DNA from: Thioalbus denitrificans | GTDB taxonomy: Bacteria; Pseudomonadota; Gammaproteobacteria; DSM-26407 | Assembly (NCBI RefSeq): GCF_003337735.1 | Contig: NZ_QPJY01000003.1 | Coordinates: 276,712 to 340,711 of the forward strand | Direction: 5' to 3' | Length of the DNA: 64,000 nt | Shown: positions 777-38,039 of the stretch, piece by piece | How the letters are laid out: the number at the start of each line of letters is the position of its first letter | Position numbering within the stretch: position 1 is the first letter of the stretch | The notes under the pieces: model-generated | Databases searched by the model: none | What the model saw: only the letters and a program-made list of their open reading frames with translations | Told to the model about the DNA's origin: nothing | Program-made: the position numbers and the translations under genes

Positions 777-1814
777 TCAGTAGAAAATCGTCACCGTGAC
801 GGTATCGCTGTAATTGCCGGCGGCGGGCGTGTTCTGGGGGCTCACCCGACTGTAGACGGTGACCGGCTGCACCGCACCGCTGCCGGTACCGGTCACGGTG
901 TCCACGTTCTCGGTGTTGCCCCAGCGCTGGCTGCGTCCGGAATCGCGGTAGAGCTCGTAGGTCACGTACTGGCCACCGCTGCTCTGCATGCGCCGGGTGG
1001 TGCCGCTGGCGTGGAGGCCGTCGTCGAGGCCGATCTGGTAGGGAGTGGTGTTGGTGCACTGGGGCGATATGGTCGCCGTGGTGTCGATGTTGGCGGTGAG
1101 CAACCCCTGGGTGCCGAAGTCGATGTCCTCGACCGCGAAGCCGGGGGCGCACTGGGCCTCGACCGTGGCGGTGGCGTCGAAGGGGAAGGTGTCGGTGCCG
1201 CCACCGCCACCGCCGCTGGTGCAACTCGCGGGGTAGGTCCCCAGGCCCAACAGCGCCTCGTTGTAGCGATACGACAGCCCCGTATGGGAGCCGGAGAAGC
1301 TGTTGGAATAGAGCCCGGGCACCAGCGCGGTCTGACCGGAGGGGACCCGGCCGTAAACGGTCAGACTGCCGGTCTTGGTCGTTCCGTTGCCGGAGAGCAG
1401 TGCGAAGGATACAGTCTGCTGGACCTCGGTGCCGGCACAGCCGGTCAGCGAGCCCCAGGTGCTGGTACGGCTGCTGTCCCGATAGAGCTGGAACGACATG
1501 GTGTTGCCACCGCTGGTCATGCGCCGCGGCGTACAGTTGCCACCCCCCGCGACGCCATCCTCGACACTGAAACACATTCGCACGAAGGACGCGTAGAGGC
1601 TGCCCAGAAAGCCGGAGTAGGTGCAGCTCCAGTCGATGGTCGCCGTAACGTCGACGTTGCCGTCGAAGGGGTCCACGAAACCGAACTGCACGTCGGTCAT
1701 GTCGGCACTGCAGGTGGTGGTCGCCTGCACGGGCGCCGCCGGCAGCAGCAGGGCGGCGGCCAGGGTGGGGCCGCCCCATCTCCGCAGGCACTGCCAGCAG
1801 GTTGGATTCCTCAT
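777..1814 (-). CDS. Csu-type fimbrial tip subunit/adhesin with two spore-coat-U domains
   Basis: The protein has 345 residues: an N-terminal signal peptide (AALLLPAAPVQA), then two spore coat U (SCPU) beta-sandwich domains joined by a glycine-rich linker (GGGGGG near residue 205). Each domain has the CS/C–C pattern and a terminal donor-type strand; the last one ends YSDTVTVTIFY. A double SCPU protein at the end of such an operon matches the tip adhesin CsuE of archaic chaperone–usher pili. The ATG overlaps the usher stop (ATGA, 1811–1814) and is preceded by GGAGGAGAAGCG, which rejects the longer upstream reading frame. Translation is probably coupled to the usher. The specific receptor is unknown. 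Confidence 0.88.
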   Translation of the reverse strand: MRNPTCWQCLRRWGGPTLAAALLLPAAPVQATTTCSADMTDVQFGFVDPFDGNVDVTATIDWSCTYSGFLGSLYASFVRMCFSVEDGVAGGGNCTPRRMTSGGNTMSFQLYRDSSRTSTWGSLTGCAGTEVQQTVSFALLSGNGTTKTGSLTVYGRVPSGQTALVPGLYSNSFSGSHTGLSYRYNEALLGLGTYPASCTSGGGGGGTDTFPFDATATVEAQCAPGFAVEDIDFGTQGLLTANIDTTATISPQCTNTTPYQIGLDDGLHASGTTRRMQSSGGQYVTYELYRDSGRSQRWGNTENVDTVTGTGSGAVQPVTVYSRVSPQNTPAAGNYSDTVTVTIFY

Positions 1815-4204
1815 CGCTTCTCCTCCACACATTCCAGCGGCCCGATCACCGGGATCCCCTGCGTCTCTTCCGGGTAGGGGAGCGCCACGGTGCAGCGGCC
1901 CCCGTCGCTGCGGATGACCGTGAGGGTGTTGTGGGGCGCCAGCCCCTCCAGGTAGGCCTGACCGTCGTAGCCGACCAGGGCCGGTTCGCCGCCGGCACCG
2001 TCCAGGAGGACCCGACTGCCCAGGGGGATCGGCGCGCCATGGCCGTCGTGGAGGATCAGTAGGGCGGCGCGCACCCGGCGCAGGCCGAAGTCGACGGTGA
2101 CGCCGGAGCGGTCGGCTGGCACGGCGGTGACCCGCGTGCGCTCCACCTGCACCTCCGCCGGGAGCTGCAGGGCATCGATGGAGACCCGGTTGGGCTGGTA
2201 GGCGTTGAGGCCGGTGACCAGGTAGTGGCCGCGGGCGTCGGTGCGGCCGATGGGGCGGTTCTCCAACTGTACCGGGACCTCGGCGATGCCGCCGGTGGAG
2301 ACCAGGGCGAAGCCGTCGGTTACGGGGCGGGCGGTGAACAGGTCGCGCTCCATCAGCACCAGGGCGCCGGCCGCGGAGCCGTAGGCGCTGTGGCTGTTGT
2401 TGATTGACCGCGTGCCGACGCGCAGTTCGGCCCAATCGCCGCGGTAACCCACCTCCGCCTGGTAGCTTTCGAGCGCCTCGCCCTGCTGGGTTTGGAGGCT
2501 CCAGCCCACGCCGCCGTCGGGGGGCACGGACTGGGTCAGGTAGGCGCTGTACTGGTTTCCGCCCTGGCGGTGGTTGACCGAGGCGCCCGCCGATCGCCGC
2601 CCCCCGAGGCTCGCCGAGATACCCGCGAAGGCAGTGTAGCCGCCCTCGCCGTCCAGCTCCCGCGTGGCGCCCAGGTGCAGGGAGAGCCCATCGGCGAGGC
2701 CAACGCTGTAGTTGGCGCCGAGGCTGCGGAAACGCCCCTCCTCGAGGGTGTCGAGGCGGCTGTAGTGGAGGGAGAGGCTGCCGCCGCGCCCCATGCCGTA
2801 GCCGATGAGCGCCCGTTCCGTGCGTCGGGGGGGCGCCCGGCCGTCGCGCGCCGCCAAATCGCGGTAGTCGTCGAAGGTGCGGGCAAGCTGGTAGTTGAAG
2901 GCCAGCCCGCCGCCTACCCAGCTGTAGCCCAGGCTGAGCTGGGTCCCCTCAGCGCCGCCGCCTTCCTCGCCGCTGCTGCTGCGGGCGTAGGCGCCATTGA
3001 CGCTGCCGAGGCGGCCGAGGCCGGCAACCGCCCCCACGCCCCCGGCGGCCAAGCCATCGCCCCCTTCGGCGTGGGCCTCCAGGGTCACTCCATCGGTCAG
3101 GCCGTAGCGCAGGCTGCCGCTGCCGACGAGCCCGTCGCGGTAGCTGAAGGACTTCAGGCCGTAGTCGGCGCGCACCCGGCCCAGTTCCAGGGAGTAGTCG
3201 CTGAGCCCCCGCCGCAGCAGGCGGGGCTCGTTGTAGTAGTCGAAGGCGATGGTGCGGCTTCGCCCGAGAGCGTCGGTGATCACCACCTGCGCCTGCCCGG
3301 TGCCGCTGACCCGGGGCAGCGTGTCGAGCTGGAACGGCCCCGGCAGCACCTCGCCCTGATACTGGCGGAGACCGCCCACATAGAGCTCCACCGCCGAGGG
3401 CAGGGCCGCCTCGCCGAAGAACTGGGGCAGCGGGCGGGTGATGAGCTCCGGCTGCAGGGCGAAACTGCGGCGCAACTGCACGCCGCCGAGACGCGTCGCC
3501 CGGCTCCAGGAGAGGCTGCCGCCGATGAAGTCGCCCACGGTCAGCGCCAGCAGCCGGTGCTGGGAGGACCAGGTCCAGGCGCTGTCGAGCCGGACATAGT
3601 CGCGGTCCTCGTCGCCGCCGTAGCGGGAGATGCCGGTGGTGGTGAGCACGCCCTGGGGGCCGAACAAGCGCAGCTCGGTGGTCGCCGCCAGGCTGCGGGC
3701 GCCCGCACCGGTAGTGCCGTAGATATCGTAGTTGAGCAGTGCGCCGGGGCTCACCGTGGCCGGCCACAGCCGTGTCTCGGGGCCGCCCAGGGTCTGCAGC
3801 TGACGGTCGAGGCGCGCGGTCGCGGCGTCGAGATAAAGACGCTGGTTGGGCGCGTCGTAGCGGTAGGTCAGGCCGGGCAGCCCGGCGAGATCGAGGTAGC
3901 GGTCCGCCGGCAGGTCGTCGAGCCGCAGGCCGATCTCCTGCAGGTGCGCTGGCCAGAGGTGGAGATGGCCGTCGGCGGTCGCGGGCACCTCCACCAGCCG
4001 CCCCGTATTCACCCTGTTGAGGAAAATCTCCAGGTAGAGCGTATGGGCGGCGCCTGCCAGCCCCGGCCCCTGCAGCAGCACGGGGGCGGCGGACGGCGGC
4101 TGGCCGCCCGGCCCGGCCAGGGCTGCCGCTCCGGCCAGGGCCATCGCGATCAGCACCGCAGCGCTAGGGAGCAGGCCACTCCAGCGGCAGCGCGGAGAGC
4201 GCAT
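1811..4204 (-). CDS. Outer-membrane fimbrial usher (FimD/PapC family, archaic Csu type)
   Basis: This 797-residue protein forms the outer-membrane pore through which pilus subunits are threaded and polymerised. The chosen ATG gives a classic signal peptide (LLPSAAVLIAMALAGAAALAG). An N-terminal chaperone-docking region follows (LEIFLNRVNTGRLVEVPA), then the plug-bearing 24-strand barrel with the family phrase YDIYGTTGAG and repeated aromatic strands, and C-terminal carboxypeptidase-like domains (VQLENRPIGRTDARGHYLVTGLNAYQPN). Length is normal for ushers. The start lies 41 bp inside the end of the chaperone gene; an ATG six codons further upstream is an alternative. It is the third gene of the four-gene operon. 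Confidence 0.93.
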   Translation of the reverse strand: MRSPRCRWSGLLPSAAVLIAMALAGAAALAGPGGQPPSAAPVLLQGPGLAGAAHTLYLEIFLNRVNTGRLVEVPATADGHLHLWPAHLQEIGLRLDDLPADRYLDLAGLPGLTYRYDAPNQRLYLDAATARLDRQLQTLGGPETRLWPATVSPGALLNYDIYGTTGAGARSLAATTELRLFGPQGVLTTTGISRYGGDEDRDYVRLDSAWTWSSQHRLLALTVGDFIGGSLSWSRATRLGGVQLRRSFALQPELITRPLPQFFGEAALPSAVELYVGGLRQYQGEVLPGPFQLDTLPRVSGTGQAQVVITDALGRSRTIAFDYYNEPRLLRRGLSDYSLELGRVRADYGLKSFSYRDGLVGSGSLRYGLTDGVTLEAHAEGGDGLAAGGVGAVAGLGRLGSVNGAYARSSSGEEGGGAEGTQLSLGYSWVGGGLAFNYQLARTFDDYRDLAARDGRAPPRRTERALIGYGMGRGGSLSLHYSRLDTLEEGRFRSLGANYSVGLADGLSLHLGATRELDGEGGYTAFAGISASLGGRRSAGASVNHRQGGNQYSAYLTQSVPPDGGVGWSLQTQQGEALESYQAEVGYRGDWAELRVGTRSINNSHSAYGSAAGALVLMERDLFTARPVTDGFALVSTGGIAEVPVQLENRPIGRTDARGHYLVTGLNAYQPNRVSIDALQLPAEVQVERTRVTAVPADRSGVTVDFGLRRVRAALLILHDGHGAPIPLGSRVLLDGAGGEPALVGYDGQAYLEGLAPHNTLTVIRSDGGRCTVALPYPEETQGIPVIGPLECVEEKR

Positions 4205-4952
4205 GTCGGACGGTTTCGCCATTGATGCGGATCCGGATCTCCTTGACGGCGGCCCACGTCCCGGCCTCCAGCTCCAGCGGCCAGCTGCGTTCGGTACCGG
4301 CCAGCACGTAACCGAGCAGGCCGGGCCGGGCGAACACCGTCTCTCCGGCGCCATCGAGAAGCCGCAGATCCGCCAGCTGGAGCCGCCGGGGGGTCGGATT
4401 CCGGGCCTGCAGGCGGACTGGGCCGGAGGGCGCCCGCTCCAGGGAGAGGCGGGCGGGCGCGGATGGCGCCGGGGCGCTTTCTGGGGCGACGAACACCGGC
4501 ACCGAGAAGCTCAGAACGAAGTTGAGGCCCGCACGCGGCGCCCCCGGCTCGGTCACCGCCGGCGGCAGTTCGTCCACCAGCAGGCGGAAGCTCTGCTCGC
4601 GGCCTGCGGGCGCCGGGGACGCCCCGGCGCGGGTGCGGATGATTCGCACCAACTGCCGCTGGCCCGGGGCGATGCGCGTCATGGGTGGGCTGACGGTGAG
4701 GCGGGTGCTGGGCGTCAGCCGGTCATCGCCCGCCTCCTGGGTCCACTGGAAAAGCCGCAGCTGGACGTCGACGGGCGTCGCACCGGTGTTGCGCAACCAC
4801 AGGCCCTGGACCCCTTGGCCCGCCGCGAACTCCACCCCCGCCGGCATCACGCTCAGGCCGGAGGCCCCGGCTGCCAGCGGCAGCACGGCCCACAGCAAAC
4901 CGGCTGCCACCCGCCGGCACAACTGCAGCAACGATGCCCAACGGCGCTTCAA
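4164..4952 (-). CDS. Periplasmic pilus chaperone (PapD/CsuC-like)
   Basis: A 262-residue two-domain immunoglobulin-like chaperone that would cap pilus subunits in the periplasm and deliver them to the usher. The signal peptide ends near GAS; the first domain begins SGLSVMPAGVEFAAGQGVQGLWLRNTG, and the G1-strand region reads PPMTRIAPGQRQLVRIIRT with an alternating hydrophobic pattern. RLLVDELPP before the second domain is typical of the family. It is encoded between the major subunit and the usher, with 146 bp separating it from the subunit gene. That gap holds a possible weak promoter (CTGACG, 17 bp, TAGCCT), so part of the operon could be transcribed separately. Confidence 0.9.
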   Translation of the reverse strand: MKRRWASLLQLCRRVAAGLLWAVLPLAAGASGLSVMPAGVEFAAGQGVQGLWLRNTGATPVDVQLRLFQWTQEAGDDRLTPSTRLTVSPPMTRIAPGQRQLVRIIRTRAGASPAPAGREQSFRLLVDELPPAVTEPGAPRAGLNFVLSFSVPVFVAPESAPAPSAPARLSLERAPSGPVRLQARNPTPRRLQLADLRLLDGAGETVFARPGLLGYVLAGTERSWPLELEAGTWAAVKEIRIRINGETVRHALSALPLEWPAP

Positions 4953-5098
4953 TGGAACACCCCGGCCCCTGATCCACCCGCCACGTACGCCCCCTGCCCT
5001 CTTCCCTGCACTGACGGGCGAAGGCTAGCACAGCCCCGCCCCGACGTCAGTCCCGGCCCGGGGCTGCCTGGCCGGCGCGACGGGCAGGTCGGCGCCGA

Positions 5099-5605
5099 TC
5101 AGTAGGTGACCGTCACCGTCACCGTGTCGGAGTAGGTGAGCGCAGGGGGGGTGTCCTGGATAGGGACGGTGCCGTAGACCGTGTAGGTCTCCTCCGCGCC
5201 GGTGCCGGTGCCTGCCTGGCTTTCGGTGTCGGCCAAGGTGCCCCAATGAGTGGTGTAGCTCGCGTCCTGGAACAGGTCGTAGCTGACGTTGTTGGCCCCA
5301 TTGACCATCTGCCGTGTGGTGGTGTCGCCGCCCGTACCCGGGTTGGCGCCGGCGTCGAGACCGATGTCGTAGGCGAGATTCTCGGTGCAGGTGACGTAGA
5401 TGCTTGAGGTCGCCGTCACCACGCTGGTCAAGGGACCCGCGGCCCCGAACGCCATATCGGTGGGGGCCGTCGTGATCTCGCAGGCATTCTGAATGGTGAT
5501 GGTGACATCGAATGTGTCGGTCACCGTCGCCGCCGTCGCGGTCAGCGGGAGTGTGCCGGCGATCAGCGCGGCGGCCAGCAGGGTCCGTCTATGCATGGTA
5601 CTCAT
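5099..5605 (-). CDS. Major pilin subunit, single spore-coat-U domain (CsuA/B-like)
   Basis: The 168-residue product has a signal peptide (RRTLLAAALIAGTLPLTATAA) and one SCPU domain with two cysteines in the first part (NACEITT and VTCTENLAYDIGLD). It ends in the alternating strand YSDTVTVTVTY, the same ending as the tip protein, as expected for donor-strand assembly. It is the first gene of the chaperone–usher operon and therefore the likely main shaft subunit. The start is fixed by AAAGGAGCTGACC directly before the ATG. Expression may respond to oxygen through the FNR-like box about 150 bp upstream. Confidence 0.9.
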   Translation of the reverse strand: MSTMHRRTLLAAALIAGTLPLTATAATVTDTFDVTITIQNACEITTAPTDMAFGAAGPLTSVVTATSSIYVTCTENLAYDIGLDAGANPGTGGDTTTRQMVNGANNVSYDLFQDASYTTHWGTLADTESQAGTGTGAEETYTVYGTVPIQDTPPALTYSDTVTVTVTY

Positions 5606-32769: not shown

Positions 32770-33498
32770 TCACTGCCGAGCGGGATAACGCCACTCATCG
32801 TCGCCGGAGGGCGGCGCGTGCTCGCTCCGCTCGATACGGTCGCGGTAGCCTTCAAAATCGCGATCGGTCTCGTCCTCCTCATCGCGAACCCGGTCCTGCC
32901 GGCGCTCCGGTTCCCGGGCACGATCGCGATCGGCATCCGGAGCAGGGTGCGGATCCCGCGCACGCTCCCCGGGCCGGCGGTCACGATCACCGGCACGGTC
33001 GCCGTCCCGGGTGCGGCCCGACTCCCGATCCCCGCTCCCATCCCGCTCCCGGTCATAGTCCCGCTCCCGGTCATAGTCCCGGTCCCGGTCGTAGTCGCGG
33101 TCCCGGTCCCGGTCGTAGTCGCGGTCCCGATCCCGGTCGTAGTCGCGGTTGCGATCCCGCCACCAATCGGGATAACGCTCCCGCTCCAGCCGGTGACGCT
33201 CGTCGTCATGCCGCCGCTGCAGCCAGGGCGGCAGCCGGTCCGGACGATGCCAGGGGCCCACATGGCGCTTGCTGCGCTCCCACAGGCCGCGATGCTCCCG
33301 GTAGTAGTAGTCGTCCCACCAGTAGAGACCGGGATACCCCACCACCCAGTAGAGATCCAGCCTGGGGTCGTAGTCGAGGTACATCCCGTCCCAGTTGCGG
33401 TAGCGATGGCTCCGCTCCGGCTCCACCACGGCACAGGCGCCCAGGGCCAGAACGGCGGCCAGCACCAGGATCGCTGAAATCAGTCTGAGGTTGCGCAT
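32770..33498 (-). CDS. Predicted lipoprotein with Arg-Asp-Tyr repeats
   Basis: A 242-residue protein. VLAAVLALGAC gives a lipobox with cysteine 22. A short aromatic region follows (YLDYDPRLDLYWVVGYPGLYWWDDYYY), then a low-complexity stretch of RDRDRDYD and RDRDYD units (about residues 115–152) and further RD/RE-rich sequence to the end. The DNA encoding it is a degenerate 18–24 bp tandem repeat near 33045–33165. The mixed-charge tail is probably unstructured. Its function is unknown; it is probably co-transcribed with the following lipoprotein gene. Confidence 0.7.
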   Translation of the reverse strand: MRNLRLISAILVLAAVLALGACAVVEPERSHRYRNWDGMYLDYDPRLDLYWVVGYPGLYWWDDYYYREHRGLWERSKRHVGPWHRPDRLPPWLQRRHDDERHRLERERYPDWWRDRNRDYDRDRDRDYDRDRDRDYDRDRDYDRERDYDRERDGSGDRESGRTRDGDRAGDRDRRPGERARDPHPAPDADRDRAREPERRQDRVRDEEDETDRDFEGYRDRIERSEHAPPSGDDEWRYPARQ

Positions 33499-33671: not shown

Positions 33672-33923
33672 ATGCGGATGGGCGGTTACAACGGCATGGG
33701 CGGGTTCGGCTGGGGTTTCGGCGGTCCGCTCATGATCCTGGTCTGGATCCTGCTGTTCGCGGGCATCGTCGTGCTGGTGAAATGGCTCGTCACGGGCAAT
33801 CGCGGCGGCCCGCCGGCCGCCGGCCGCACCGCGCTGGAGATCCTCGAGGAGCGTTACGCCCGGGGCGAGATCGATCGGGAGGAGTACCGGCAGAAACGCG
33901 AGGACCTTGAGCGCGGGGTGTAG
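33672..33923 (+). CDS. Small SHOCT-domain membrane protein
   Basis: An 83-residue protein: a glycine-rich N-terminus (MGGYNGMGGFGWGFGG), one transmembrane helix (MILVWILLFAGIVVLVKWLV) and a C-terminal SHOCT motif (ALEILEERYARGEIDREEYRQKREDL). SHOCT segments are short helical oligomerisation or tethering modules. CAGGGAGGC precedes the ATG. Function unknown. Confidence 0.8.
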   Translation: MRMGGYNGMGGFGWGFGGPLMILVWILLFAGIVVLVKWLVTGNRGGPPAAGRTALEILEERYARGEIDREEYRQKREDLERGV

Positions 33924-34005
33924 CGGGCGCCGGGCCGTGGCCGCTGACATGCCCCTCTCAGCGCCGGGAACGTGGCCCCCGGCCGTACCCCGCCCCGCTC
34001 ATGGC

Positions 34006-34341
34006 TCAGGGCGAGGAGATATCCCAGAAGGTGCTGTTCCAGTCCGGCCGGCGCGGGAACCGGGGAATGCCCCGATCGGCGGACTCGATGGTGGCCGCAC
34101 CGATGCGGGGCGGGGGCAGCGGGGTCCGCGCATCGTCCTGCCGCTCCTCGGCGGTCGGCATTGCCGGGGTGTCGGCGCGGGTCATGGGCGCGCTTTCCCC
34201 CTCGTCCTTCTCCATGGCGGCGCAGCCGCCCATGGCCACGACCGCCGCCACCAGGGCCGGGAAAAGAACGGCCGGCAGCCGCAGCATGGCCGGGCCGGGT
34301 TCCGCCGGGCGTGTCGCATCGAATCGGCCTTGAGTCCGCAT
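34006..34341 (-). CDS. Small lipoprotein ending in the FPRRPxWxxTFWDISSP motif
   Basis: A protein of about 111 residues. LRLPAVLFPALVAAVVAMGGC is a lipoprotein signal, and the mature part is short, acidic and proline-rich. Its last 17 residues, FPRRPDWNSTFWDISSP, match the end of the next upstream gene product closely. ATG 34341, after GGAGGAGCGG, is preferred; ATG 34287 would give a shorter signal. It is the last gene of a three-gene exported operon (barrel protein, coiled-coil lipoprotein, this protein). I do not recognise the family. Confidence 0.65.
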   Translation of the reverse strand: MRTQGRFDATRPAEPGPAMLRLPAVLFPALVAAVVAMGGCAAMEKDEGESAPMTRADTPAMPTAEERQDDARTPLPPPRIGAATIESADRGIPRFPRRPDWNSTFWDISSP

Positions 34342-34391
34342 CATCCGCTCCTCCGTCTGCACAAGTTTCACTGCCGCCTCCACCCCCGCCG

Positions 34392-35456
34392 TCAGGGCGA
34401 CGAGATGTCCCAGAAGGTGTCGCCCCAACCGGGCCGCCGGGGGAATTCGGGCACCGCCTCGCCACAGGCCCGCAGGGCGGACAGGGCCAGCTGCTGCGCC
34501 TCGTAGGCGGCGTCCTGGGCGCTGCGGGTGTGGGAGGCCAGGCTCGAGGCACTCTCCGAGATCCCGGCCCGGGCCGTCTCAATCATCGACCGCAGCCAGC
34601 CGGCCGAGGGATCGCCTTCCCGGGTCAGGCCGGTGAAGTTCATTCCGGTCAGGAAACCGCCGGATTCGCGGCCCAGGCCGAACACGGCCGCACGGGCCCG
34701 GTCCATGGCATCACTGTAACCGGTGAAGTTGATGGGAATGCCCCGCATCTCCCGATCGAAGACGGCGCTCTTGGCCTCCTCCATGGCCCGGCGGCCGTCG
34801 GCCACCTGCACCGGGACCCGCCGCGCCTCCGCCTGCCACGCCGCGACGATGTCGCCCATCTCCGCCGCGGAATAGGTGTCGTCGTAGCGGGAGAAGGCGG
34901 GATAGGCCGCACGCAGCTCGCCCATGATGTCGGCGATGTCCTCGACGCTCTGCCCCACCTCGTCGGCCACCTCCTTGGCCGCGTCGATGTAGCGGGTGAA
35001 CCGCGCCAGGTTGCCCTGCTCATCCCAGGCCTTGTTCATCAGCTCCGTGAGCTCGGCCCGGGCGGACAGCAGCCGGTTGGTGGCCTCCCGCAGCCGTTCC
35101 GCAACGGCTTCCATCTCGCCCAGCGCATTGAGGGCGTACTGCAGCGACGCGTAGGCCTCCTCGGCCTGCCGCGCATGCTCCTGCGCGTATCCCCGCTGCT
35201 CGCTCACCCGGCCGGCCAGGTTCTCCTCCGCGGCCGCCGGGCAGTCGCCCCGACTCTCCACCAGCCGCCCTGCATTTTCCGCGCGCTCGGCCGCCTCCCG
35301 GGCGACGGCGATGTTCTGCCCCGCCTGGTAGGGCGTGAGGGCCTGCGCCGCCGCGCCCTCGTCCAGGGTCGCGCAGCCGGCCAGGGCCGCGGCCAGGCCG
35401 AGGACCAGCACGCCCCCGGCAATCCGCGCCACCTGCCTGCTGATCTGCCCGAACAT
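34392..35456 (-). CDS. Coiled-coil lipoprotein ending in the FPRRPxWxxTFWDISSP motif
   Basis: A 354-residue protein with a lipoprotein signal (VLVLGLAAALAGC, Cys28) and a long alanine/glutamate-rich helical region suggesting an antiparallel coiled coil (AREAAERAENAGRLVESRG, EEAYASLQYALNALGEMEAVAERLREATNRLLSARAEL). The last 17 residues are FPRRPGWGDTFWDISSP, shared with the small lipoprotein encoded 47 bp downstream. It follows the beta-barrel gene by 25 bp. I know no family with this ending; a periplasmic or surface spacer role for the helical part is inference. Confidence 0.7.
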   Translation of the reverse strand: MFGQISRQVARIAGGVLVLGLAAALAGCATLDEGAAAQALTPYQAGQNIAVAREAAERAENAGRLVESRGDCPAAAEENLAGRVSEQRGYAQEHARQAEEAYASLQYALNALGEMEAVAERLREATNRLLSARAELTELMNKAWDEQGNLARFTRYIDAAKEVADEVGQSVEDIADIMGELRAAYPAFSRYDDTYSAAEMGDIVAAWQAEARRVPVQVADGRRAMEEAKSAVFDREMRGIPINFTGYSDAMDRARAAVFGLGRESGGFLTGMNFTGLTREGDPSAGWLRSMIETARAGISESASSLASHTRSAQDAAYEAQQLALSALRACGEAVPEFPRRPGWGDTFWDISSP

Positions 35457-35481
35457 GATCTCCCCCTCCGGGAAGCCGGGT

Positions 35482-36504
35482 TCAGAACCGGTAGGTGATG
35501 CCGATTCCGAACTCGGCGCGGTCGGCCTTGAACTCCGGCTGGCTGGCGTCGTAGCGGCTCTTGGTGTAGTAGGCGTCGGCCGTCCAGCTGCGGTCGATCT
35601 GCCACAGCAGCTCGGCGCCGTAGCGGGTGATGTCCTGGTCGGTGCGCCCGGGTGGCGCGATGAAGCCGACGAAGCCGTCGTAGTCCCGGTTGTCCCGGCT
35701 CACCTCGAGCCCCAGCCACAGCGGTCCGTACAGGTGGCTCTCGAAGCGGCCGGTGAAGATGTTGGCGTCGTACTCGAAGTTGCTGCCGTCGGCATTGTTG
35801 ACCGCGCGGGTATAGGAGACGCTCACCGACCGCAGCCGATCGTCCCAGTAGTAGGTCGCCGACAGCCCGAAGGCGTGGCGGGTGGCGTCGCGGTCATCCA
35901 GGGTCGGGTCGGGAAACTCCACCTCGAAGTCGTCCCGGCCATAGGTGTAGCTGGCACCGATGGTCAGATCCGGGCGCGGGTTCACCGCGGCCTTGAGCTT
36001 GAGGTCATGGCTCTTGAGACCACCGGCGTGCACCGGCAGCCATTCGCGGCGGAAGCCGTAGGAGATGCCGACCTGGGCGGGCATGCCGTTGGCCAGCCGG
36101 AAATGGCGCAGGGCGAACAGGCTGGGGTTCAGGGCGATCAGGTCGTACTGCTCCGGCGGATCGTAGGCCGGGTTCGGCGTTCCGGTCTCGCTGTAGGCGA
36201 GCCGGTCCAGCGTCAGCGCGACACCCGCGGTCCAGTCGGCGGACTGCACCAGGCGGTAGGTGGCATCGAGGGAGATCCCGCCAAAGGCGCTCTCGCGCTC
36301 ACCCGAGAAGAAGGTGGCATCGGGCGCCAGCGGCACGTTGTCGTTGTGGCCGACGAACAGCCGGATGGATGCGTCCCAGGGACGCATCTCCGGCAACCCG
36401 GCCTCCGGCTCGGGGCCCGCCGAGGGACTCTCGAAATCCGCCAGGGCGGCGGCAGGGCAGAACAGGCCGATGCAGCAGACGGCCGACAAGGCGTGATGTC
36501 GCAT
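35482..36504 (-). CDS. Outer-membrane beta-barrel protein of unknown function
   Basis: A 340-residue protein with a signal peptide (LSAVCCIGLFCPAAALADF) and about a dozen alternating amphipathic strands (FVGHNDNVPLAPD, GGISLDATYRLVQSADWTAGVALTLDRLAY, FGLSATYYWDDRLRSVSVSYTR), ending in the barrel signature EFGIGITYRF with a terminal Phe. The GHNDNV phrase occurs in several outer-membrane barrels. It heads the operon with the two FWDISSP lipoproteins, so it may anchor or export them; that is inference. GATGGAGGGGGGTACC precedes the ATG. Confidence 0.75.
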   Translation of the reverse strand: MRHHALSAVCCIGLFCPAAALADFESPSAGPEPEAGLPEMRPWDASIRLFVGHNDNVPLAPDATFFSGERESAFGGISLDATYRLVQSADWTAGVALTLDRLAYSETGTPNPAYDPPEQYDLIALNPSLFALRHFRLANGMPAQVGISYGFRREWLPVHAGGLKSHDLKLKAAVNPRPDLTIGASYTYGRDDFEVEFPDPTLDDRDATRHAFGLSATYYWDDRLRSVSVSYTRAVNNADGSNFEYDANIFTGRFESHLYGPLWLGLEVSRDNRDYDGFVGFIAPPGRTDQDITRYGAELLWQIDRSWTADAYYTKSRYDASQPEFKADRAEFGIGITYRF

Positions 36505-36734
36505 GGTACCCCCCTCCATCGAGCCTGAGCCGTACCGGTGACCGGTGCCGTCCAGGCCAGAGCCCGTCAAGGATTCTTCGCCAACATCCTGGCTGCAGGC
36601 GACGGCCTCTCACGCGCTGGTGACCTTGTCAGCGTCTGTTTACCTGTCCGTGGACATGATGACCACACAAACAGCCTGCTATTGTTCTTCTAGTCGACAA
36701 TCAATCCCCTGGCAAGGTATTTATCCGCCGCGAT

Positions 36735-37220
36735 TTATTGCCCAAACAACCAGTTACCGCTGTCGGCGGTCAGCAGCTCCGCGCCGCTCTCCAGCCCGCC
36801 ATCCACCACCTCCGCCAGGCAGAGGTCCCGGTCACCGGAGTCGAACCGCGCCTCCACCCGGCAGTCGAGCCAGCCGGGAGTGTTCTCCAGCAGGGGGGAG
36901 CCGGTGACGGGGGACAGGCCATGGGTGAGCCCGGCGAGCTTGTCGATGTCGCGGCCGGTGCGGGTGCCGAAGCGCCAGGCGCGGTCGAACTGGTCCGGGG
37001 CGAGGAGGTGCAGGGCGAAGGCGCCGGATGCCTGCACCAGGCCGGCGGTGTGGTGGTGACGGGCCAGCGCGATCACGACCCGGGGCAGCCCGGGGATGAT
37101 GGAGGCCCGGACCACGAAGCTGGCGACGAGGCCGCCGCGGCGCCCGCCGGCCTGCGCGGTGACCAGCCACAGCGGCGGATCGATGCGCTCGAAGAGCGAC
37201 TGGATGCGGTCGGGATCCAT
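36735..37220 (-). CDS. Flavin reductase-like domain protein
   Basis: A 161-residue FMN-binding split-barrel protein. PPLWLVTAQAGGRRGGLVASFVVRASIIPGLPRVVIAL is the typical N-terminal pattern, and HHTAGLVQASGAFALHLLAPDQ and LDCRVEARFDSGDRDLCLAEVVDG continue it. Members reduce free flavins with NAD(P)H or act as flavin-dependent reductases; the partner is unknown. It lies between unrelated genes and ends TWLFGQ-like at the edge of an A+T-rich gap. Confidence 0.82.
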   Translation of the reverse strand: MDPDRIQSLFERIDPPLWLVTAQAGGRRGGLVASFVVRASIIPGLPRVVIALARHHHTAGLVQASGAFALHLLAPDQFDRAWRFGTRTGRDIDKLAGLTHGLSPVTGSPLLENTPGWLDCRVEARFDSGDRDLCLAEVVDGGLESGAELLTADSGNWLFGQ

Positions 37221-37253
37221 GGACGGACCCGGGTTCGCGCCGGTCCCGACTCG

Positions 37254-38039
37254 TCACGGACCGGCGTTCGCCTCCAGCCAGCCGCTCACCGCCGCCAGCA
37301 GGGCGTCGTCCCGGCCGTCGAAGAAGTGGTTGGCGCCGTCCACCTGCTGCCGGGTGTAGGCATCGTTGCCCGCCTGCGCCGCGGCGGCGGCGCGCAGGCC
37401 CGCGCTGCCCACCACGTCCTCAAGGTCGGCGCTGCCGTAGAGGTCGAGCACCGGCAGGGTGATCCGCGCCAGCGAGCGGGCGTTGTCGGTGCGCCCGGGG
37501 CGGGTCGCGCCGGCGCCCATGCCAATGCCCACGAAGGCGGCCACGCCGCGATCGCCGCCGGCCAGGTAGTCGCTGGCCATGGCCGCGCCCATGCTGTGGG
37601 CCACCACCACGACCGTCCCGTAGCCCCGCTCCTTCAGGTAGGCGATGCCGGCGTCCAGGCGCGGGGCCACCTCGTCCATCAGCGGCAGGTAGTCCTCGCC
37701 GGCGGCCTCGTTGCCGAGGATGGGCAGTTGCAGGGAGAGGGTGGTCCAGCCGTGCTCGGGGAGCCGGGCGCGCAGCGGCTGCACCACCTGGGGCCAGTCG
37801 GGGTGGGCGCCGATGCCGTGCAGCACGATGGCGGCGCGGGAGGCGCCGTCGGCCTCGGTGAGGATGCCGAGGAAGGGGGTGGCGCCCGCCTCCAGCCGGA
37901 TCGCCTCGCCGTCGATGAGGGCGTCGACGATCTGGTCGGCCCAGCGCTGCTCCTTGGCCAGGTCGCTGGCCATTGCGCAGGGTGCTGCGAGCAGGGCCAG
38001 CAGGCCGAGCAGGGGCATCAGGACACTTTTATGGTGCAT
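37254..38039 (-). CDS. Exported alpha/beta hydrolase (DUF3530)
   Basis: A 261-residue protein with a signal peptide (LMPLLGLLALLAAPCAMA). The hydrolase core has the DUF3530 phrases AIVLHGIGAHPDWPQVVQPLRARLPEHGWTTLSLQLP and the nucleophile elbow VVVAHSMGAAMA (AHSMG), with an acid in LDLYGSADLEDV and a late histidine in DGANHFF. The substrate is unknown; it probably acts in the periplasm. GGAGGAAACCCCC precedes ATG 38039 and decides against the upstream ATGs. Confidence 0.82.
   Translation of the reverse strand: MHHKSVLMPLLGLLALLAAPCAMASDLAKEQRWADQIVDALIDGEAIRLEAGATPFLGILTEADGASRAAIVLHGIGAHPDWPQVVQPLRARLPEHGWTTLSLQLPILGNEAAGEDYLPLMDEVAPRLDAGIAYLKERGYGTVVVVAHSMGAAMASDYLAGGDRGVAAFVGIGMGAGATRPGRTDNARSLARITLPVLDLYGSADLEDVVGSAGLRAAAAAQAGNDAYTRQQVDGANHFFDGRDDALLAAVSGWLEANAGP

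Follow-up and report, generated by a model that had tools for sequence, protein, structure and literature searches.

The Slam translocator has a barrel of about 14 strands, and the substrates known for it are characterised by an 8-stranded barrel domain instead of a short tail. General sorting or cleavage signals usually mark many proteins per genome; Tsp/Prc prefers non-polar ends and DegS binds YxF-type ends. For type XI secretion (Slam/SlipAM; PF04575, PF24575), targeting by the C terminus of the substrate is an established idea (PMC8406197). The locus described here lies in a window of 64,000 nucleotides of Thioalbus denitrificans, the whole stretch of DNA that was analysed. With the type XI systems it shares a barrel of about 14 predicted strands, adjacent lipoprotein genes and, in relatives of its barrel, a TPR domain. 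It differs in a barrel without SlipAM match or TPR, and in lipoproteins that have a short linear tail instead of a TbpB-type barrel domain, which a domain search did not find in lipoproteins 1 and 2 (lipoprotein 1 was modelled as helical). SlipAM (PF04575) did not match the window barrel at E values up to 1, and the best SlipAM match in the same genome, a TPR-barrel paralog, reached 11.3 bits against a cut-off of 22. With scores under the cut-off, membership in Slam fails; the likeness in overall layout, with TPR, lipoprotein genes next door and a barrel of about 14 strands, serves as a lead only.

Other described systems resemble the locus in single traits. Exopolysaccharide export barrels with TPR (PgaA) have the TPR-plus-barrel plan of the window barrel's relatives, and of the EpsL-type barrels EpsL matches the window barrel weakly (15.7 bits, cut-off 275), but the called genes that surround the operon include none for polysaccharides. 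PEP-CTERM, GlyGly-CTERM and the type IX CTD present a conserved extreme C terminus on otherwise unlike exported proteins; here, however, two proteins only are concerned, without a terminal transmembrane segment or an Arg cluster, and in contrast to C-terminal sorting tags a dedicated processing enzyme was not seen near this operon. Chaperone-usher fimbrial subunits are likewise envelope proteins with a common C terminus beside an outer-membrane partner, but are homologous over whole domains, whereas the lipoproteins share the tail only. TPR-plus-barrel proteins encoded beside FecR-domain or acidic secreted proteins (BBP2_2-like, TIGR03016-like) are true homologues of the window barrel and have secreted neighbours, yet the neighbours examined lack the tail and several members have the TPR domain that is missing in the window barrel.

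The probable operon and its shared tail

The first-pass annotation had described a barrel gene followed by genes for lipoproteins of 354 and 111 residues, and the genes were located accordingly (Table 1), in the order barrel, lipoprotein 1, lipoprotein 2 on the minus strand. The codirectional genes are separated by 25 bp and by 47-50 bp, and a purine-rich Shine-Dalgarno-like stretch lies ahead of all three starts. Gaps and purine-rich stretches fit with a single operon, and the three genes are probably co-transcribed; a sigma-70 consensus site was not found in a promoter scan at the locus. The sense frames have GC3 values of 0.91, 0.91 and 0.86, typical of real genes. A non-coding or antisense artefact was ruled out, as a 508-aa antisense ORF lacked coding-type codon-position GC.

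Table 1. Features of the barrel-lipoprotein locus (positions in the window)
Feature	Position	Strand	Description
Outer-membrane beta-barrel gene	35482..36504	minus	ATG 36504, stop 35482; 340 aa; C-terminal end GIGITYRF
Lipoprotein 1 gene	34392..35456	minus	354 aa; lipobox LAGC; mostly helical body
Lipoprotein 2 gene	34006..34344	minus	112 aa from ATG 34344, 111 aa from adjacent ATG 34341
Lipoprotein 1 C-terminal tail	34395..34454	minus	VPEFPRRPGWGDTFWDISSP
Lipoprotein 2 C-terminal tail	34009..34068	minus	IPRFPRRPDWNSTFWDISSP

By inspection, both lipoproteins have a signal peptide and a lipobox cysteine (LAGC in lipoprotein 1, MGGC in lipoprotein 2), the lipobox of lipoprotein 2 being weaker by a deviation at -3. 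Both have Ala at +2, so that retention in the outer membrane is expected and an outer-membrane location is likely. The body of lipoprotein 2 is short and Pro/Ala-rich. A single-sequence model of lipoprotein 1 (mean pLDDT 57.8) was helical: long helices towards both termini were predicted with confidence, the middle was modelled poorly, and the tail contained a short helix. Relatives of lipoprotein 1 were not detectable, including in pattern scans of an 84,980-species collection; against solved structures neither its sequence nor its fold gave a significant match, the best fold match having an E value of 0.15. Plasmid sequences matched neither the barrel nor lipoprotein 1. A further lipoprotein gene in the window (32770-33498, minus) codes for a Tyr/Trp-rich protein with an imperfect DRDRDYDRDRD tandem repeat and no Pfam match.

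BLASTP of lipoprotein 1 against lipoprotein 2 gave a good alignment confined to the last 20 residues, of which 15 are identical (E 4e-10; motif FPRRPxWxxTFWDISSP). The mature bodies scored 26 against 28 ± 4 for shuffles and are thus unrelated, so that the first-pass observation of 15 identical tail residues out of 20 on unrelated bodies was borne out. Among 1770 pairs of C-terminal 20-mers from the 60 called genes of the window, the two tails ranked first; the next strong pair (13/20) came from two homologous fimbrial subunits, and the remaining pairs had at most 7 identities. A simple composition model put the probability of at least 15 of 20 identities by chance at less than 1e-7 if the genes are adjacent and at less than 1e-4 when all pairs are counted, and a chance origin of the likeness is excluded. 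The fimbrial pair belongs to a chaperone-usher operon (780-5605, minus), in which the C-terminal stretch YSDTVTVT is common to two spore-coat-U-like subunits; it provides a natural control for shared tails.

The 15 shared residues showed 5 silent differences, against 5.57 expected for codons drawn independently from the codon usage of the window. At least 5 silent differences have a probability of 1e-4 at 10 % of saturation and of 0.12 at half saturation, which is still allowed. Near-randomised silent sites together with 15 of 20 residues kept point to an old tail that is conserved as protein sequence. DNA identity of the two 3' ends drops to background just beyond the stop codon; this and the silent-site divergence, which would be far smaller after a recent event, rule out that the 3' ends were duplicated recently as DNA. 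Serine is encoded by TCN in both tails, though AGC is the commonest codon, and this, on the basis of just two serine positions, suggests common descent of the tail, not convergence. Of the earlier claim for a functional tail, this much stood: with silent sites near-randomised, residues kept and an operon-like run behind the barrel, the tail looks functional and not like a copying artefact.

Distribution of the tail and relatives of the barrel

Searched with a profile of the tail, the 4.14 Mb genome gave exactly two significant hits, those of lipoproteins 1 and 2. The tail is genuine and old, and within the genome it is confined to this operon. A profile search of 369 genomes of the same class yielded no significant match, with hits near noise only, and the tail was not found in 398 genomes of the same phylum. 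Pattern scans of 84,980 species genomes gave no confirmed relative; these scans demand near-exact peptide stretches, so that diverged tails could be missed, and may leave out the window's own or very near genomes. Viral contigs had no confirmed tail match and no PHROG family was credible; together with the lack of plasmid matches to the barrel and to lipoprotein 1, this led to the rejection of a plasmid or viral origin. The letters of the tail gave no result in the literature. A tail-like match in another genome (G110:C139) was a 20-residue open frame and was dismissed as chance. The one other genome that represents the order is of the same genus and closely similar, with recG being 99 % identical. 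In it, contigs break off at window positions 33761 and 37398; the whole locus falls inside an assembly gap (33761-37397), and absence there is uninformative. Unlike a sorting tag, the tail occurs in two significant copies in the same operon instead of on many proteins per genome, and recurrence across genomes with a cognate enzyme was not seen in the profile searches or in the restrictive pattern scans.

The window barrel has a signal peptide and a C-terminal aromatic beta-signal, and a crude amphipathic scan gave about 14 strand peaks. Pfam OMP_b-brl and BBP2_2 match it weakly, below the cut-off, and its NCBIfam hits are likewise sub-threshold. A single-sequence AlphaFold model, for which no alignment was used, was unusable with a pLDDT of 33, and the barrel profile had no match among solved structures. 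In a single-sequence search, homologues appeared in genome G110 (E 4.2e-17) and as a paralog in the same genome (E 7.9e-5), with about 24-25 % identity; the barrel profile matched in 23 of the 369 class genomes. Several homologues, including the own-genome paralog, have an N-terminal TPR domain, which is absent in the window barrel and also missing from the barrel copies G110:C93 and G226:C11. Judged by sequence, the window barrel is a divergent, TPR-less relative of gammaproteobacterial TPR-plus-barrel proteins (BBP2-like).

The barrel relatives are flanked by genes for FecR-domain proteins, by genes for acidic secreted proteins with sigma/anti-sigma genes, or by housekeeping genes, and some occur without a secreted or tail-type neighbour. 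In the loci examined, the tail was not seen among the neighbours. Genome G110 has two paralogous barrels whose downstream neighbours code for proteins with a segment in common (34 of 79 residues identical, E 9e-6) in otherwise different bodies; this resembles the lipoprotein case, but plain paralogy explains it equally. The first-pass annotation had suggested a new secretion or surface-display system, to be pursued by searching for the motif and listing the genes beside each hit, and to be given up if the motif was found in no other genome. No other genome with the tail was found within the limits of the searches, in a lineage that is almost unsampled, nor did the tail stand beside the examined barrel relatives. 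The proposal of a new system is not borne out: it is weakened by the absence of the tail elsewhere and is not established.

Possible roles of the tail

We tentatively favour the tail as an operon-specific docking peptide through which the two lipoproteins would bind a single partner in the envelope, for which the barrel is a plausible candidate. The locus would then be a three-gene envelope operon with two outer-membrane lipoproteins bearing the same docking peptide, FPRRPxWxxTFWDISSP. An N-terminal lipid would anchor each lipoprotein in the outer membrane and each tail would insert into one shared binding site, most economically the periplasmic face or the lumen of the barrel encoded immediately upstream; a single barrel complex might then have lipoproteins 1 and 2 as accessory subunits, either one in place of the other or both together. 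In favour of docking we counted the tail identity far above chance, the silent-site result, the presence of two copies only, the close codirectional genes, the secreted-protein genes beside barrel relatives elsewhere and the shared segment in G110. Two copies in one operon speak more for a dedicated docking peptide than for a general signal of sorting or cleavage. Against docking we counted that the tail was found in no other genome searched, that barrel relatives also occur without such a neighbour, and that the G110 case may be plain paralogy. We infer both that the tail binds at all and that its partner is the barrel; peptidoglycan, LPS, a chaperone or another protein would suit docking as well.

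A rather unlikely alternative is a remnant of paralogy: lipoprotein 2 would stem from a duplicate of lipoprotein 1 that lost its middle part but kept the signal peptide and the tail, and the tail would serve a local function of the two lipoproteins (folding, dimerisation or self-association, for instance) in which the barrel has no role. The two genes are adjacent in tandem, and the TCN serine codons in both tails suggest common descent. The proteins also show some likeness at both ends, since a weak match at the lipobox (GCATL--DEG versus GCAAMEKDEG, E 2.0; DNA repeat D3, about 69 %) joins the tail; however, this match is not significant, the mature bodies are no closer than shuffles, and the near-randomised silent sites indicate that something holds the tail specifically. 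Export or surface display seems improbable; in this reading the barrel would be a translocator of the Slam-like (type XI) kind, and its two lipoprotein substrates would be marked by the tail for flipping to the cell surface. Substrates of type XI secretion are targeted via the C terminus (PMC8406197), the predicted strand number of about 14 is that of Slam, and the barrel relatives share a Slam-like TPR-plus-barrel architecture, in one case with a sub-threshold TPR_Slam match (26.2 bits against 35.2). Against display stand the SlipAM scores of the window barrel and of its own-genome paralog, the loss of the TPR part from the window barrel, the short tail in place of the 8-stranded domain of known Slam substrates, and the absence of other substrates from the genome. 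We give little credence to a minimal substrate-tag system peculiar to a single lineage with sparse sampling: the barrel, descended from a Slam-like one and without TPR, would recognise the tail as a dedicated linear C-terminal signal and display two unrelated lipoproteins. A cleavage or degradation tag, or an attachment signal for peptidoglycan or LPS, unconnected with the barrel, is highly improbable: the tail is placed at the extreme C terminus and is aromatic, Arg-rich and Pro-capped, but the Ser-Ser-Pro end is unlike Tsp/Prc- or DegS-type ends, a transmembrane segment as in PEP-CTERM or GlyGly-CTERM does not follow, and the genome has two copies only.

If the docking reading is true and the tail binds the barrel, a short portable peptide would bring lipoproteins to a barrel, the tail would help in studies of what determines the specificity of barrel-lipoprotein complexes, and the poorly described TPR-plus-barrel family would gain lipoprotein partners. 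Otherwise, what is left is an orphan operon whose conserved tail lacks an explanation.

Gene sets beside related barrels

The own-genome TPR-plus-barrel paralog (contig C8; L040, 7726-10289) is followed by a gene for a 108-aa secreted protein, and the locus also has a divergent secreted protein with the C-terminal end GFNPQPEPPAVGR; Pfam matched neither of these two secreted proteins. The two G110 loci (L041, 1-1732; L042, 3-2412) code for TPR-barrels with a FecR-domain protein or a small secreted protein downstream, whose shared segment has a YKQEP motif and a Pro-rich end. At two loci (L076, L078) the gene after the TPR-barrel probably codes for a secreted protein of FecR type, and very large repeat-rich adhesin-type proteins come next. 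A set of a sigma and/or anti-sigma-like gene (Cys-rich N terminus), an acidic secreted protein and a TPR or plain barrel recurs at five loci of diverse gammaproteobacteria (L077, L082, L083, L086, L087) and, with names assigned by inspection, looks like an undescribed envelope module.
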